A DNA stretch of 37,933 bases from a virus, in IMG/VR virus record IMGVR_UViG_3300047557_000568, positions 1 to 37,933 of that record; one strand, written 5' to 3'. The notes under the pieces were generated by a model. The model ran no database searches. It saw nothing but the letters and a program-made list of their open reading frames with translations, and was not told the origin of the DNA. Within the stretch, counting starts at the first letter, position 1. Every line of letters starts with the position of its first letter. Position numbers and translations under genes: made by a program. Positions 1,016 through 37,006 of this stretch are shown one piece after another.

Positions 1016-2693
1016 TATTGAAACAAACACAAAACACGACAAGATTTGGATTGCTGTTGCTCGTAACATTGACACAGACCATGTCATAAGATTCACAGGT
1101 AAGGACGCACTACAAGACCATATCAACCGTGCAACAAAGGTAATCATGCATAACGGTATCTTCTTTGACGCACCAGTGTTGAAGAAGGTCTGGGGAGTGA
1201 CGATGAAGAAGTCACAGGTTGTGGACACTTTAGTCATGTCAAGACTTTACAATCCACAACTTGACGGCGGACACAGCCTAGAATCATGGGGTAATCGTCT
1301 TGGTTTCGCTAAAGGTGACTTCAAAGACTTTGATGGCGGTCTTACCGATGAAATGATTAAGTATTGTGAGCAAGACACGCTAGTAACTAAACAGTTGTAT
1401 CACTTCTTAGAAAGGGAAATGAAACATGACTACTCGAAAGAAAGCATCGAACTCGAACACGAGGTCGCAATCATTGTCGCTGAACAAGAGCGTAACGGTT
1501 TCAGACTCGATGAAAGAGCTGCTCAGGGATTATTGGTGGAACTTAAGGCTAAGTTACAGGCTATTGAGTCTGAAATGCAAAGCGTATTTCCTGCCAAAGT
1601 TACCAGTGGCAGAACCCACAAGAAAACAGGTAAGCCGCTCGCAGACATCGTCGAGCCGTTCAATCCAGGCAGCCGTAAACAAATCGCAGAAAGACTCATC
1701 GAAAAAGGTTGGAAGCCAACGAAAACCACGGAAAAAGGTAGCATCATCGTTGACGAAAGCACCCTCGAAGGAGTCGACATCCCAGAAGCGAAGAAAATCG
1801 CAGAGTACCTAATGTTACAAAAGCGTATTGCACAGATTGAATCATGGATTGATGCAGTTGAATCCGATGGTCGTGTGCATGGCAAAGTAATTACCTGCGG
1901 TGCTGTGACTGGACGCATGACTCATCACAGCCCTAACATGGCTCAAGTGCCTAACAGCACAGCCATCTACGGACCTGAATGTCGTGCATTATGGACTGTT
2001 GAGAAAGGAATGAAGTTAGTTGGCATTGACGCAAGTGGTTTAGAATTGCGTATGTTGGCTCACTACATGAATGACAATGCGTATACGAATGATATTGTTG
2101 AAGGCGATATACACTGGACGAACACACAATCCCTTGGACTCATTGCTAAAGAAACCGTCAGAGACAAGACGAGTGAAAGCCATGAGGAAAAGAGAAGTAA
2201 AGCTAAGACTTTTATCTATGCCTTTCTCTACGGTGCAGGAGCTGCCAAAATCGGGACGATTGTTGGAGGTAGTGCGAAGGAAGGACAAAAGCTCATTGAT
2301 AATTTTCTACGCAACACACCGAAGCTCGATGCGTTACGCAAGAAAGTATCTAAAGCATACAACGAAAAGGGCTGGTTACGAGGTTTGGACGGACGCAAGT
2401 TACTCGTACGCTCGGAGCATTCGGCGCTCAACACGCTGTTGCAAGGCGCAGGTGCGATAGTAATGAAGAAGGCTTTGGTTCTGTTGTCAAAAGAACTAAA
2501 GAAGAACAAGATACCGCACAAGTTTGTCGCTAATGTCCATGATGAATGGCAGATTGAAACGACAGAGGAATATGCACAGCTTGTCGGTGAAACAGGCAAG
2601 AAAGCTATCGAACAAGCAGGACTAGAATTAAAGATGCGTTGTCCTCTTGACGGTGATTACAAAGTAGGTCTAAACTGGAAGGAAACTCACTAA
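999..2693 (+). CDS. Family A DNA polymerase with 3'-5' exonuclease (T7 gp5-like)
   Basis: A 564-residue replicative polymerase. The proofreading domain has Exo I (D6-I-E8), Exo II (HNGIFFD, D57) and Exo III (YCEQD, D126). The polymerase domain has motif A (GIDASGLELRML, D344), motif B (KAKTFIYAFLYGAG, about 401-414) and motif C (NVHDEW, H514-D515-E516). It is shorter than T7 DNA polymerase (704 aa), mostly by lacking insertions. Y407 corresponds to T7 Y526 and E. coli F762; the Tyr form is commonly linked to virulent phages. It lies downstream of the primase-helicase across the genome junction. The stop overlaps the next start (TAATG). Confidence 0.96.
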   Translation: MRIVLDIETNTKHDKIWIAVARNIDTDHVIRFTGKDALQDHINRATKVIMHNGIFFDAPVLKKVWGVTMKKSQVVDTLVMSRLYNPQLDGGHSLESWGNRLGFAKGDFKDFDGGLTDEMIKYCEQDTLVTKQLYHFLEREMKHDYSKESIELEHEVAIIVAEQERNGFRLDERAAQGLLVELKAKLQAIESEMQSVFPAKVTSGRTHKKTGKPLADIVEPFNPGSRKQIAERLIEKGWKPTKTTEKGSIIVDESTLEGVDIPEAKKIAEYLMLQKRIAQIESWIDAVESDGRVHGKVITCGAVTGRMTHHSPNMAQVPNSTAIYGPECRALWTVEKGMKLVGIDASGLELRMLAHYMNDNAYTNDIVEGDIHWTNTQSLGLIAKETVRDKTSESHEEKRSKAKTFIYAFLYGAGAAKIGTIVGGSAKEGQKLIDNFLRNTPKLDALRKKVSKAYNEKGWLRGLDGRKLLVRSEHSALNTLLQGAGAIVMKKALVLLSKELKKNKIPHKFVANVHDEWQIETTEEYAQLVGETGKKAIEQAGLELKMRCPLDGDYKVGLNWKETH

Positions 2694-8315: not shown

Positions 8316-10197
8316 TACAGTAGGATACATTACCTACAAAAGAACATACGCCCGTCGCTTGAACGAGGCAGCCGCTGATAGTCCTACAGAAGAATTTGAA
8401 GACACAGTAAACCGTGTAATTGCTTCTGCTAACAATCAACTTAATGTTGGATTCACTAACGATGAACAACTGCGTTTAAAACAATATTTGATGGAATTGA
8501 AAGGAACTGTCGCAGGACGATTCTTGTGGCAGATGGGAACAGCAACAGTAGATAGATTAGGTCTAGCTAGCTTACAGAACTGTGCGTTTACAACAATTAA
8601 CGAGCCTGTAAGACCGTTTACATGGGCGATGGATATGCTGATGCTAGGTTCTGGTGTCGGTTATAATATTCAAAGAGTAAATGTTGATAAACTTCCTATT
8701 GTCAATGCTAACTTCACTGCTCCTACTCGTCTCGATACTACAGATGCTGATTTCATTGTTCCAGATAGTCGTGAAGGATGGGTTAGTCTACTTGGTAAGA
8801 CCCTAAAAGCAGCATTTTTAAGTAATCGTAAAAATACATTTACTTTCTCAACTATTAATATACGTGGAAAAGGCGCACCAATTAAGGGCTTTGGTGGTAC
8901 TGCTTCAGGACCAGAAGATTTATGTTGGGGTATCTCAAAGATTAGTGAAGTGCTTGAAAAAAGAGCAGGTCGTAAGTTGCGTCCTATTGACTGTTTAGAT
9001 ATTATGAACATTATTGGTGCTGTTGTTGTTGCTGGTAATGTGCGTCGCTCCGCTCAGATTGCAATCGGAGACCCTGATGATGTTGAGTATTTATTAGCAA
9101 AGCGTTGGGACATGGGTAATATCCCCAGTTGGAGAGCCATGTCGAATAACTCAGTTGTTTGTAATGACATTAAAGACTTACATGAATTCTTTTGGGACGG
9201 GTATGAAGGCAAAGGCGAGCCGTACGGTTTGATTAACCTCAAATTAAGCCGTAAGATTGGTCGTCTAGGAGAAACCATGTACCCAGACCCTGATGTACAA
9301 GGTTATAATCCGTGTGCAGAGCAGTCTTTAGCGCCTTATGAGACTTGCTGTTTAGCTGAAGTATGGCTTCCTAATGTTAAGACATACGAAGAATTTGTTG
9401 ATATTTGTACATTATTGTACCGTATTAATAAACACAGCCTTGCATTACCGTGTCACTTAGATGAAACAGCTGATATTGTCCACAAGAACATGAGAATGGG
9501 TATCGGCATTACTGGTGTTCTCCAAGCCACAGAAGAACAAAAATCATGGTTGCGTCCTGCTTATACACAGTTGCGTGAGTTTGATAAGAAGTACAGCGAA
9601 GAAAACGGATTCCCTACTTCAATTAAATTGACAACAGTTAAACCGAGCGGAACATTGTCTTTATTACCAGGAGTAACGCCTGGATGCCACCCTGCGTATG
9701 CTCAGTATATGATACGTCGTATTCGCATCTCTGCAGACCATCCATTAGTAACTGTATGTCGTGAACACGGTTATCCAGTTGAGTATCAACAAAACTTTGA
9801 TGGTTCTGAAGACCATAGTACTGTAGTTGTGTCTTTCCCATTTGCATATCCTGAAGGAACAAAGTTAGCGAAGGAAATGACAGCGATTGACCAACTAGAA
9901 ACAGTTAAGTGGTTACAAGAGGTATGGAGTGATAATTCTGTATCGTGCACAGTGTACTATCGTAAGGAAGAGCTTCCTGAAATTCGTAAGTATCTCGCTA
10001 AAAACTATAAGAACAATCATAAGTCTTTGTCATTCTTGTTGCATAGCGACCACGGATTTAAACAAGCACCTTATGAGGAGATAACTAAAGAGCAATATGA
10101 AGATTTAGTTGCTAAGACAAGATTAATCACCAAGATTGACGATGCTCAGTTTGATGGTGGTGATGAATGCGCTTCAGGAGCTTGTCCTGTTAAATAA
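8296..10197 (+). CDS. nrdJ: Class II (adenosylcobalamin-dependent) ribonucleoside-triphosphate reductase
   Basis: A 633-residue monomer-type reductase that makes deoxynucleotides for phage replication. Key cysteines match the Lactobacillus leichmannii RTPR pattern: C96 (SLQNCAFT) and C351 as the redox pair, C340 in NPCAE as the thiyl radical site with E342, and C625/C630 (ECASGAC) as the C-terminal swinging pair. C351 is 11 residues after C340, as C419 is after C408 in RTPR. Other family segments are LGSGVGYNI, GNVRRSAQIAIGD and KPSGTLSLLPGVTPG. Class II needs host B12 but not oxygen. RBS AAAAGGAAAATA. Confidence 0.93.
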   Translation: MSNIPFSTVGYITYKRTYARRLNEAAADSPTEEFEDTVNRVIASANNQLNVGFTNDEQLRLKQYLMELKGTVAGRFLWQMGTATVDRLGLASLQNCAFTTINEPVRPFTWAMDMLMLGSGVGYNIQRVNVDKLPIVNANFTAPTRLDTTDADFIVPDSREGWVSLLGKTLKAAFLSNRKNTFTFSTINIRGKGAPIKGFGGTASGPEDLCWGISKISEVLEKRAGRKLRPIDCLDIMNIIGAVVVAGNVRRSAQIAIGDPDDVEYLLAKRWDMGNIPSWRAMSNNSVVCNDIKDLHEFFWDGYEGKGEPYGLINLKLSRKIGRLGETMYPDPDVQGYNPCAEQSLAPYETCCLAEVWLPNVKTYEEFVDICTLLYRINKHSLALPCHLDETADIVHKNMRMGIGITGVLQATEEQKSWLRPAYTQLREFDKKYSEENGFPTSIKLTTVKPSGTLSLLPGVTPGCHPAYAQYMIRRIRISADHPLVTVCREHGYPVEYQQNFDGSEDHSTVVVSFPFAYPEGTKLAKEMTAIDQLETVKWLQEVWSDNSVSCTVYYRKEELPEIRKYLAKNYKNNHKSLSFLLHSDHGFKQAPYEEITKEQYEDLVAKTRLITKIDDAQFDGGDECASGACPVK

Positions 10198-30751: not shown

Positions 30752-30779
30752 TTGCCAGGACTGTATAGACCAATGCAAA

Positions 30780-30794
30780 TGATAATGATTCTCA
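30780..30794. promoter_or_regulatory. Fur-box-like palindrome 1
   Basis: TGATAATGATTCTCA, a 7-1-7 inverted repeat with one mismatch against the ideal Fur core TGATAATNATTATCA. Identical to box 2 and 80 bp from it. Confidence 0.65.
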
Positions 30795-30859
30795 ATACAG
30801 GCTGCGTGTATGGCGTTGTTGCACCTATATAGACCTACCTGAGTCACAGACTACACAGA

Positions 30860-30874
30860 TGATAATGATTCTCA
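30860..30874. promoter_or_regulatory. Fur-box-like palindrome 2
   Basis: TGATAATGATTCTCA, followed by ATTTG; the 19-base window matches 14 of 19 positions of the classical Fur box. A TATATAAG sequence begins about 9 bp further, a possible -10 element without a clear -35. Confidence 0.65.
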
Positions 30875-30918
30875 TTTGACTCTTATATAAGACATAAGAC
30901 AGATGATACATGACTAAA

Positions 30919-30933
30919 TGAGAACGATTCTCA
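30919..30933. promoter_or_regulatory. Fur-box-like palindrome 3
   Basis: TGAGAACGATTCTCA, a 7-1-7 inverted repeat with one mismatch between its arms. It lies 59 bp from box 2. Confidence 0.6.
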
Positions 30934-31005
30934 ATAACATCTACACAGATAACCCTACAACACAGTCAGGTATTAGCACAATACTGTCTAAACATACAGT
31001 AGTGT

Positions 31006-31022: not shown

Positions 31023-31150
31023 ACGCTACAAAGCGTTTGTGTCTTAACTGATACCTAAGCATAGGACAGGTCTTAATCGCAGGTTTTCAAGTAAACAAAG
31101 GGTTTCAAGGCAGGTGTGTTGTATTTACGCAACTCAGGGTAAATCAGTAG

Positions 31151-31179
31151 TTGAGAGAGTTTGCAAACAGCAGTAAAGT
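31151..31179 (+). promoter_or_regulatory. Candidate early rightward promoter
   Basis: TTGAGA (31151-31156), 17-bp spacer, TAAAGT (31174-31179). The -35 matches 5 of 6 and the -10 4 of 6. It would start transcription near 31186, about 43 nt before the first early gene and about 210 nt before the ribozyme. It lacks the spacer motif of the late promoters. Confidence 0.55.
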
Positions 31180-31228
31180 TTAGTTATAGCAACACAGTTC
31201 AACAACACACAAAGAAAGGTAAGTAATC

Positions 31229-31399
31229 ATGAAATACAGAATCGAACTAGACCTAGGTGAATTAGAATTGCTCAACGCAATCATGACAGAACAAGCAAAC
31301 CAATACAAAGACCTTAGAATCCAGATGCTTTATAGAAAGGTTTACGGTAAGACTGCAGTAGCGCACAACACACTACCAAAGCAAACAGAACAAGCCTAA
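31229..31399 (+). CDS. First early gene, hypothetical protein of 56 aa
   Basis: A 56-residue protein, MKYRIELDLGELELLNAIMT then QANQYKDLRIQMLYRKVYG, with a beta-helix pattern. The ribosome binding site GAAAGGTAAGTAATC precedes the ATG. Its last two codons (GCC TAA) form the 5' strand of stem I of the hammerhead ribozyme, so translating ribosomes would disturb the ribozyme. Function unknown; small first early genes often act in host takeover (inference). Confidence 0.7.
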   Translation: MKYRIELDLGELELLNAIMTEQANQYKDLRIQMLYRKVYGKTAVAHNTLPKQTEQA

Positions 31400-31445
31400 C
31401 TGATGAGCCTTTAATAGGCGAAACCCTAGTGATAGGGTCTTAGGC
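31394..31445 (+). ncRNA. Type I hammerhead self-cleaving ribozyme
   Basis: All core elements are present in order. Stem I: GCCTAA (31394-31399) pairs with TTAGGC (31440-31445), 6 bp, open ends, hence type I. Core CTGATGA (31400-31406). Stem II: GCCT (31407-31410) with AGGC (31416-31419), loop TTAAT, with the usual G10.1-C11.1 pair. GAA (31420-31422). Stem III: ACCCTA (31423-31428) with TAGGGT (31433-31438), loop GTGA, including A15.1-U16.1. Cleavage-site base C17 is C31439, so cleavage is between 31439 and 31440. It would leave the next gene with a 28-nt leader and a 5'-OH. Tertiary loop contacts are not evident. Confidence 0.93.
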
Positions 31446-31467
31446 AAACAACACAGAGGTAAACAAC

Positions 31468-31668
31468 ATGAAATCAATTAAACCAATGGTCTATAAAAAC
31501 TACTTAGTGATGCTAGAGCCACAACACAATGGCTCAATCCTAGCAGTCGCATCTGATTTAGATGATGCAAGGGATAGAATCAAAAAAACATACTACGGTT
31601 ATCAGGTGTCATACATCAAAGCCGAGATGAAACTATTGATTAATGATGCACTTGAGCATCAGTCTTAA
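31468..31668 (+). CDS. Hypothetical early protein, 66 aa, behind the ribozyme
   Basis: A 66-residue protein: KPMVYKNYLVMLEPQHNGSILAVASDLDDARDRIKKTYYGYQVSYIKAEMKLL. It looks like a small alpha/beta fold. The ribosome binding site AGAGG is in the 28-nt segment left downstream of the predicted ribozyme cleavage site, so the cleaved mRNA should still be translatable. Function unknown. Confidence 0.7.
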   Translation: MKSIKPMVYKNYLVMLEPQHNGSILAVASDLDDARDRIKKTYYGYQVSYIKAEMKLLINDALEHQS

Positions 31669-31721
31669 CAGTAGTAAACTTAAACACAGCAGTATCTTAA
31701 ACTTTAGACAAGGGGTAAAAC

Positions 31722-31919
31722 ATGACTTACACATACATTGAAGAATCCACAGCATACGAGCAATACGATGAGATGTTAGACGATTGCCACGATGAGATTG
31801 TCATAGGCTATATTAGACTAGCACCTAGCACAGTATTAAAAGAATGCGACCCAATCGCTTACCAATGTGGTTTTAATGATTGGCTTGATTCATGTGAATT
31901 GACTATTGACGAGGAATAA
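31722..31919 (+). CDS. Acidic hypothetical protein, 65 aa
   Basis: A 65-residue acidic protein (MTYTYIEESTAYEQYDEMLDDCHDEIVIGYIRLAPSTVLKECDPIAYQCGFNDWLDSCELTIDEE), net charge strongly negative. RBS AAGGGGTAAAAC. The spacing CDPIAYQCGFNDWLDSC is reminiscent of small phage proteins that bind host factors, but I cannot assign one. Confidence 0.7.
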   Translation: MTYTYIEESTAYEQYDEMLDDCHDEIVIGYIRLAPSTVLKECDPIAYQCGFNDWLDSCELTIDEE

Positions 31920-35147: not shown

Positions 35148-35423
35148 ATGAGTTTAGATGACGATATGCGTTTTATTGAGCATCTCAAGCAGACCTCTGG
35201 AAGCTCTAAAGAGATGATTGAGAAGTGGTTAGAACACAAAAACAATGACGAACAATGGAAGGCAACTGTGGCAGAAGTTAAGGCTTATAACAAAGAGATT
35301 GAACGGATTTACAGTAAGATTGAATCCGACTATGAAGAACACAAAGATATGATTAAAGACGCTTTAGACCATTATCTGCGTGATACATTCGACCTCGATA
35401 CTTTAAAGAGAATGTTGAAATGA
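35148..35423 (+). CDS. Coiled-coil acidic protein, 91 aa
   Basis: ATG 35148, directly after the previous stop; a longer frame starting upstream overlies the secreted peptide gene. The product is almost all helix (MRFIEHLKQTSGSSKEMIEKWLEHKNNDEQWKATVAEVKAYNKEIERIYSKIESDYEEHKDMIKDALDHYLRD), probably a coiled coil. Coupled by ATGA to the primase-helicase; may be an accessory subunit (inference). Confidence 0.65.
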   Translation: MSLDDDMRFIEHLKQTSGSSKEMIEKWLEHKNNDEQWKATVAEVKAYNKEIERIYSKIESDYEEHKDMIKDALDHYLRDTFDLDTLKRMLK

Positions 35424-37006
35424 GCGACAGTAAATTTGTTAAACATTTACCATGCGACAACTGTGGCAGTAGCAACGGCAACAGTTTGTATGACGATGGA
35501 CACACATTCTGCTTTGTTTGTAATACACACTCGAACAACGGAACAACCACAATGAAAGAACAACCTAAACCTATGAATAAGGACTTATCATTTTATGACA
35601 ATGCTGCTTCTACTTCTATCCCTGACCGTGGTATTCATTCGGCTTCTTGCCTAGCCTATGGTGTTCGTTTAGCACGAGATAAGCACTATTACCCTTACTA
35701 TGATGCTGATGGCACTATGGTGGCTATCAAGACTCGCTCAGTAGAGGATAAGCAATTCAGTATCGCAGGTGATTTTAAACAAGCGATGCTGTTTGGACAG
35801 AATCTATTCGCTAAAGGTGGTCGTTATTTAACCATCACAGAGGGTGAATTAGACGCTTTAGCGGCTTATCAGATGTCGGGTAGTAAATACCCTGTCGTAT
35901 CACTTCGTAATGGCGCACAAGCGGCTTTAAAGGACTGCCAAGCCCAATATGAATGGATTGATAGCTTTGAGAACATTGTCCTATGTTTTGATGACGATGA
36001 ACCAGGTCGTAAAGCATCACAAGCTGTCGCTGAATTGTTCGGTGGCAAAGTTAAATTAATGAAACACAAGAAAGGATATAAAGATGCCTGTGATTACCTC
36101 TCTAATGGAGATTCTAAAGAATTTATCGACGCTTTCTGGTCTGCTGAAGGATACGTCCCAGACGGAATTATCAACGCAGGTGTCTTACTTGAGGACATTA
36201 AAAAACCGTTAGGAGTTGCACCTGTTTTGTATCCGTGGACAGGTCTTAATAAAATGCTATACGGTATCCGCCATGCTGAGTTAGTCACTCTTGCAGCAGG
36301 TTCTGGATTAGGTAAGTCTACTATCCTTCGTGAGCTTGTTTCACATATTTTAAATAACACAAATGAAAAAGTAGGTCTTGCGTTTTTAGAAGAAACACCA
36401 GAACGAACTATGCGTGGATTAATCGGACTAGAGATTAATAAAAAGATTCATCTTCCAGACGCTATTTATGACCCACAGGATATTGATAGAGTCTATGAAA
36501 AACTAGATTTAAACAATCGTGTATTTTTATGGAATCATTTTGGTTCAAATGCTATTGAAAATGTTCTTTCACGACTTCGTTATTTTGTAAAGGCTTTAAA
36601 CTGCAAATACCTAGTCCTTGACCATCTATCTATTCTTATCTCTGACCAAGCAGGTGGGGATGAGCGTAAGAATATCGATATGGTAATGACTAAACTTCGT
36701 ACATTTGTCCAAGAGATGAATTGCAGCCTTTTACTTGTATCTCACCTAAAGCGTCCTGAAGGCAAGTCTTTGGAAGATGGCGCAGTAACAAGTCTTGGTA
36801 TGCTTCGTGGTTCAGGCGCTATTGCACAGCTATCTGATGCCGTAATCGGTGCGGAAAGGAACAGTCAAGCCGATGACATTATAGAAAGAAACACAACTAA
36901 TGTTCGTGTGTTAAAATCGAGATATACTGGCTATACAGGGTATGCGTGTAGTTTGTATTACGATGATTCCACAGGTCGTCTTAGAGAGGTTATAAACGAG
37001 CTATGA
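35420..37006 (+). CDS. Primase-helicase (T7 gp4-like)
   Basis: A 528-residue bifunctional replication protein. A zinc-binding primase N-terminus (C12, C15, C31, C34) is followed by a TOPRIM fold (TITEGELDALAA with E141; CFDDDEPGRKA with D191-193). The hexameric helicase part has Walker A GSGLGKST (294-301), the AFLEETPERT motif, and Walker B YLVLDHLSIL (D401). It unwinds DNA and lays primers for the polymerase, whose gene lies downstream across the genome junction. ATGA overlaps both sides. Confidence 0.95.
   Translation: MSDSKFVKHLPCDNCGSSNGNSLYDDGHTFCFVCNTHSNNGTTTMKEQPKPMNKDLSFYDNAASTSIPDRGIHSASCLAYGVRLARDKHYYPYYDADGTMVAIKTRSVEDKQFSIAGDFKQAMLFGQNLFAKGGRYLTITEGELDALAAYQMSGSKYPVVSLRNGAQAALKDCQAQYEWIDSFENIVLCFDDDEPGRKASQAVAELFGGKVKLMKHKKGYKDACDYLSNGDSKEFIDAFWSAEGYVPDGIINAGVLLEDIKKPLGVAPVLYPWTGLNKMLYGIRHAELVTLAAGSGLGKSTILRELVSHILNNTNEKVGLAFLEETPERTMRGLIGLEINKKIHLPDAIYDPQDIDRVYEKLDLNNRVFLWNHFGSNAIENVLSRLRYFVKALNCKYLVLDHLSILISDQAGGDERKNIDMVMTKLRTFVQEMNCSLLLVSHLKRPEGKSLEDGAVTSLGMLRGSGAIAQLSDAVIGAERNSQADDIIERNTTNVRVLKSRYTGYTGYACSLYYDDSTGRLREVINEL

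Follow-up and report, generated by a model that had tools for sequence, protein, structure and literature searches.

Hammerheads and their proposed role in RNA processing in phage early operons

The early operons of phage T7 contain intercistronic RNase III sites, located around the RNA polymerase gene, which split the polycistronic mRNA. The phage hammerheads considered in this work resemble them in being intercistronic, in belonging to early operons and in lying near the RNA polymerase gene, and they would split the mRNA as well. However, the T7 sites depend on a host protein that leaves 5'-phosphate and 3'-OH ends, whereas a hammerhead acts by RNA catalysis and produces 5'-OH and 2',3'-cyclic phosphate ends.

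Active tandem hammerheads have been described in polycistronic RNAs of Agrobacterium, Azorhizobium and Clostridium, with cleavage demonstrated both in vitro and in E. coli (PMC3088659). The same authors reported HHphage, a hammerhead in the early region of the haloviruses HF1 and HF2 that is placed 13 nt before a helicase gene, and the end of a transcript was mapped no more than 3 nt from its site. The enrichment of hammerheads near genes of Mu-like phages was also documented (PMC10085705), and a review considered the role of hammerheads in bacteria and phages to be open, noting their tie to phages and to small ORFs (PMC6155905). The point that the tandem hammerheads and HHphage share with the case presented here is the occurrence of hammerheads in phage-like polycistronic RNAs. 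HHphage differs in its atypical core insertion and in belonging to viruses of halophiles, and no stop-codon architecture is described in that paper. Hammerheads in phages and in prophage-like operons were already known; we class as new a variant of phage early operons that is locked to a stop codon. A literature search found no paper on this stop-codon architecture, on hammerheads of Pelagibacter phages or on an exchange with hairpins, a result that bears weakly on novelty, as subscription journals fell largely outside the search.

The element at the ORF1/ORF2 boundary

The window analyzed here is the whole of IMG/VR virus record IMGVR_UViG_3300047557_000568 (37,933 nt). Positions 31394-31445 of its plus strand contain all the bases that are invariant in type I hammerheads, together with three stems of 6, 4 and 6 bp, all of them closed. 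The element begins with the 5' strand of stem I, GCCTAA (31394-31399), whose pairs covary in the family described below, followed by the core sequence CTGATGA, from C3 to A9 (31400-31406), which reads CTGANGA in nearly all family copies. Stem II (31407-31419) consists of the four pairs GCCT/AGGC and a UUAAU loop of the family-typical UNANU type, and it is followed by the GAA formed by G12, A13 and A14 (31420-31422), invariant in 146 of 146 copies. Stem III (31423-31438), also subject to covariation, contains the six pairs ACCCTA/TAGGGT, including A15.1-U16.1, and is capped by a GUGA tetraloop of the GNRA type. Next comes C17 (31439), recognized by its position and represented in the 146 copies by C in 140, A in 6 and G in none, so that cleavage is predicted between 31439 and 31440. 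The 3' strand of stem I, TTAGGC (31440-31445), which likewise covaries, would then be the start of the 3' product.

The minimum-energy fold of this 52-mer is exactly that of a hammerhead (-18 kcal/mol, z -2.9, with 1 of 200 shuffles equally good), and it is retained when about 55 nt of flank are added on either side (161-nt context). Both the window copy and the family possess the type I core, namely CUGANGA, GAA, the A15.1-U16.1 pair and a residue 17 that is not G; fold and covariation alike indicate three stems around this core, with stem I open-ended, as is proper of type I.

The element is located between two small genes. ORF1 (31229-31399, plus strand; 56 aa), the first gene of the rightward operon, ends at the TAA in positions 31397-31399, within the 5' strand of stem I. 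The ATG of ORF2 (31468-31668, plus strand; 66 aa, function not assigned) is found 28 nt past the predicted cleavage site, and the intervening sequence (31440-31467) would become its 5'-OH leader, close in length to the family median of 30 nt. This leader carries the ribosome-binding site of ORF2, AGAGG (31455-31459), which is thus outside the ribozyme. No relatives of ORF1 were found by protein search and no promoter stands out; the operon is designated as early on the basis of gene order. The 1-kb gap between the divergent operons, 5' of ORF1, contains three Fur-box-like sequences at 30778-30940 (GATAATGATTCTCA, with the variant GAGAACGATTCTCA), which may be sites for a host regulator in the region of the early promoter. 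A leader element composed of AGTAGTAAACTTAAAC followed by CNGYATTATCCTAACTTTGGAG, or similar, was observed at 31669-31700 of the window and in six related loci (L009, L014, L020, L026, L051 and L064); it stands before several small early genes, sometimes directly 3' of a hammerhead.

An initial annotation of this stretch had placed a complete type I hammerhead at these positions, with the parts in the order given above, the stop codon of the first gene in stem I and a spacing of 28 nt to the next start codon, and all of this agrees with the present analysis. It had further judged a chance origin very unlikely, and this was borne out: a loose descriptor (at least 4, 3 and 4 bp for stems I, II and III) found one match in the real window and none in 1000 dinucleotide shuffles of it, on both strands. 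Its expectation of a strong type I match in Rfam did not hold. A scan of the window reached the gathering cut-off of no family, RF00163 (Hammerhead_1) included, and the best scores of the element were 20.7 bits for RAGATH-1 (cut-off 56.3) and 20.3 bits for HH9 (cut-off 52), although such a cut-off is a recognition threshold and not a structural feature. The interpretation of that annotation is partly supported: it stands as regards a type I hammerhead that overlaps the stop codon of the first gene, and falls as regards its recognition by Rfam, whereas cleavage, early expression and the competition that it expected between translation of the first gene and ribozyme folding are predictions.

The low scores can be set beside the features of each model. 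The element shares with Hammerhead_1 (clan CL00010) the core, the three stems, the open stem I and the cleavage position. However, the window copy and nearly all others of the phage family score under its cut-off, and the geometry of the family is distinctive, with a 6-bp stem I bearing A on both sides, a 4-bp stem II, a UNANU loop and a stop codon at the 5' edge. The copy in the closest relative of the window reaches 33.5 bits (cut-off 34), and some family members exceed the threshold (L160, 37.6 bits; L150, 36.2 bits). With RAGATH-1 (RF03152) the element has the hammerhead core in common, but stem II of that model is a single base pair, and of the four pairs in its 5' hairpin three fail in the window; for this reason, and given the weak score, an assignment to RAGATH-1 was rejected. 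Because nearly all the tested copies fall under the Rfam cut-offs, annotation at present misses them.

That the window copy passes no Rfam cut-off could be taken to mean that it is a chance resemblance, or a hairpin element devoid of self-cleaving capacity. We regard this explanation as very improbable, considering the empty result with the shuffled windows and the fact that the unpaired catalytic bases are conserved (the GAA without exception, residue 17 never being G), a constraint that a plain hairpin would not need. Very strong comparative evidence supports the identification of the element as a hammerhead of type I, situated toward the 5' end of the rightward (replication) operon.

Copies of the ribozyme in related phages

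The primase-helicase encoded in the window (35420-37006) was used to collect 64 related viral loci. When these and the window were searched for the core only (CTGANGA, 7-30 nt, CGAAAC), pairing not being required, 18 sites appeared, that of the window and 17 others, and the three stems are formed at all of them. One of these sites, in L045, had been missed by a strict descriptor on account of one extra U before stem II. A covariance model (R1), whose training set of 12 copies shows 100% pairing and two-sided change in 8 of the 16 pairs, found the identical 18 sites and no others in the same sequences, the window element scoring 86.3 bits. Descriptor matches with long loops inside the primase gene were discarded as chance.

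The closest relative of the window, with a primase 81% identical, was found by whole-record search to carry its own copy, which scores 69.6 bits with R1 and is absent from the training set. Its stems II and III differ from those of the window and the first gene preceding it differs in sequence, and a TAA stop is again present in stem I. Searching for an exact pattern built on the stems of the window copy yielded no match, and neither did a nucleotide search of positions 31150-31750 in named phages. Many relatives lack any copy, which indicates that the ribozyme is dispensable; no decayed copies or remnants were seen in them, and in three such loci (L028, L049 and L055) no other Rfam ribozyme was found in replacement of the hammerhead.

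The search was extended with the CTAA/TTAG pattern of stem I, which occurs in at least 120 stretches of IMG/VR (a lower bound and not a census) versus two matches in 84,980 prokaryote genomes, so the family is essentially viral. Both prokaryote matches, L203 3794-3861 (minus strand) in a Daejeonella MAG and L204 1157-1227 (plus strand) in an Acidiferrales MAG, possibly lie on prophages or on phage contigs binned with the MAGs. R1 gave at least 155 matches over the loci among the matches listed, corresponding to about 150 distinct copies. Other hammerhead types were encountered in two of the viral sequences. L101 contains a type II hammerhead (1587-1663, plus strand; 42.1 bits, over the Rfam cut-off), and a type I copy follows about 350 nt downstream on the same contig. 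L150, a record of 39798 bases with 14 type I model matches, contains a type III hammerhead-like match (8622-8676, minus strand; 47.4 bits, cut-off 48.5), as well as additional overlapping type III-like matches.

Comparison of 146 distinct copies shows both the ribozyme fold and its family: 99.2% of the cells are paired, two-sided change affects 13 of the 16 pairs, and covariation scores 0.696 versus 0.137 in shuffles and at most 0.084 in slid versions. The compensatory stem changes that the initial annotation had proposed to look for in related phages are present, and relatives that keep the position while losing core or pairing, which it had named as a refutation, were not encountered. The A15.1-U16.1 pair is present in all 146 copies, as is the GAA, although most copies were found via the core plus CTAA/TTAG, and the conservation of those letters is in part imposed; the pattern set no constraint on stem II beneath its closing pair, on stem III beyond its first pairs or on the outer pairs of stem I. 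Stem I of the family has 6 bp and is flanked by A on both sides, UNANU prevails in loop II, and GNRA and UUCG are frequent in loop III. Copies with a GNRA-like loop II tend to carry a U after stem I, a pattern that is at most suggestive of a tertiary contact between loop II and stem I.

The position in the operon is equally shown by comparison. The copies stand between cistrons near the start of the early operon (early by gene order) and share the strand of the replication genes; 32 of 38 are followed downstream by primase and 33 of 35 by DNA polymerase. Among the 39 copies for which a terminase gene was identified, that gene lies upstream and on the other strand in 30 cases. It is common for one record to carry several copies in gaps that follow one another (14 copies in one record, 7 and 6 in others), and where a phage RNA polymerase gene is present (L098, L117, L149 and L154) copies are placed just before or after it. 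Three cultivated Pelagivirus isolates infecting Pelagibacter, HTVC142P, HTVC168P and Eistla, contain copies in gaps that precede the RNA polymerase gene; those of HTVC142P and Eistla, read base by base, have a loop II that is UNANU or nearly so and a TAA stop inside stem I. Predicted cleavage sites fall within 658-732 of HTVC142P and within 8782-8851 and 10036-10110 of Eistla. The model also matches HTVC031P and the uncultured S35C6. No match was found in the genomes of T7 itself, of cyanophages, roseophages and Rhizobium phages, or of the Pelagibacter phages HTVC115P, HTVC103P and HTVC025P.

Stop codons, hairpins and the proposed function

An upstream ORF was available at 137 sites, and grouping by similarity of the encoded proteins reduced these to 105 clusters. 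The stop codon of the ORF is located within -16 to +1 of C3 in 94 of the 105 clusters, so that the overlap noted in the window is general in the family. The ORF overlaps the ribozyme in 69 clusters, and in 39 the TAA directly precedes C3 (-3), as in the window. Among ORFs ending inside the element the frame counts are 39, 15 and 5, the -3 frame being preferred (p = 0.0015 for the first two), and the next ATG follows the cleavage site at a median of 30 nt (5-95%: 24-75). The comparison shows that the placement of the stop codon is a real trait of the family.

In certain related phages the same kind of slot is occupied by a long hairpin. A pattern search identified HP-A, of about 22 bp with one bulge (L013 5290, L019 550, L025 2105, L028 4413, L035 1390 and L056 3850), and HP-B, of 16 bp (L020 704, L036 3076, L037 3570 and L064 1972); only recurrent hairpins found in this way were considered, as a scan for low-energy hairpins was too noisy on its own. 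Both are intercistronic, each starting at a stop codon and preceding a leader and an ATG, and they look like RNase III-type processing sites. Ribozyme and hairpin coexist within one operon in L020, L025 and L036, and the slot ahead of orthologous genes contains a ribozyme, a hairpin or nothing, depending on the phage. Three clusters have both ribozyme and hairpin ahead of orthologues, the L011 hairpin in the first of them being weak. We read this swap, seen in few cases, as a functional exchange between self-cleavage and a candidate RNase III-type hairpin. These hairpins, too, have their start at the stop codon, so that a compact packing of genes is a viable alternative explanation for why stop codon and stem I overlap.

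This point affects the notion that the hammerhead is active and that its main job is translational regulation, in which ribosomes on ORF1 would hold stem I open and keep the mRNA whole, while reduced translation would allow folding and cleavage and alter the expression of ORF2 and later genes. In its favor, the stop lies inside stem I or adjoins it in the majority of upstream protein clusters, and the -3 frame is preferred. However, packing can explain the overlap, TAA is a favored stop that stem I supplies in any case, and cleavage would unmask nothing, since the ribosome-binding site of ORF2 is outside the ribozyme; we consider it rather unlikely. Still less probable, in our view, is that the element is a selfish or neutral cassette spreading among the intergenic gaps of phages, its cleavage being of no benefit to them. 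Such a cassette would fit the gain and loss of copies ahead of orthologous genes, the presence of up to 14 copies per record and the mostly unrelated flanking ORFs (105 clusters from 137 sites), but it does not agree with the uniformity of the copies in strand, in place within the operon and in distance from the stop and start codons, or with the maintenance of all stems by compensatory change, which points to selection at the RNA level.

We think it likely, from the evidence as a whole, that the hammerhead cuts the nascent polycistronic early mRNA after C31439, at the ORF1/ORF2 boundary, acting as a built-in processing site like the RNase III sites of T7. The steps that we infer from known hammerhead chemistry and from the ribosome footprint are the following. 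Because the stop codon sits in the 5' strand of stem I, a ribosome terminating at the ORF1 stop is expected to sit over stem I and a portion of the core, and cleavage should await its departure. Cleavage would make the ORF1 mRNA end in two compact hairpins, with a 2',3'-cyclic phosphate at the 3' terminus, and would leave ORF2 and the following genes on a message with a short (28-nt) 5'-OH leader. Both new ends should resist the usual routes of host decay, and for this reason cistrons of one transcript could have separate lifetimes.

A broader and more doubtful proposal, which we put forward tentatively, is that a widespread class of phages swapped protein-dependent processing of early mRNA for serial hammerheads whose stem I holds or abuts the preceding stop codon, each cistron being released only after the last ribosome terminates. 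If true, catalysis by the RNA would in these phages be tied mechanically to the termination of translation. The roughly 150 distinct copies share one layout, consisting of stop codon, ribozyme, leader of about 30 nt and next gene, within early or replication operons, and this points to a single testable function, the self-processing of early mRNA. As the family includes cultivated phages with a named host, Pelagibacter (HTVC142P, HTVC168P and Eistla), the idea can be tested in infected cells.
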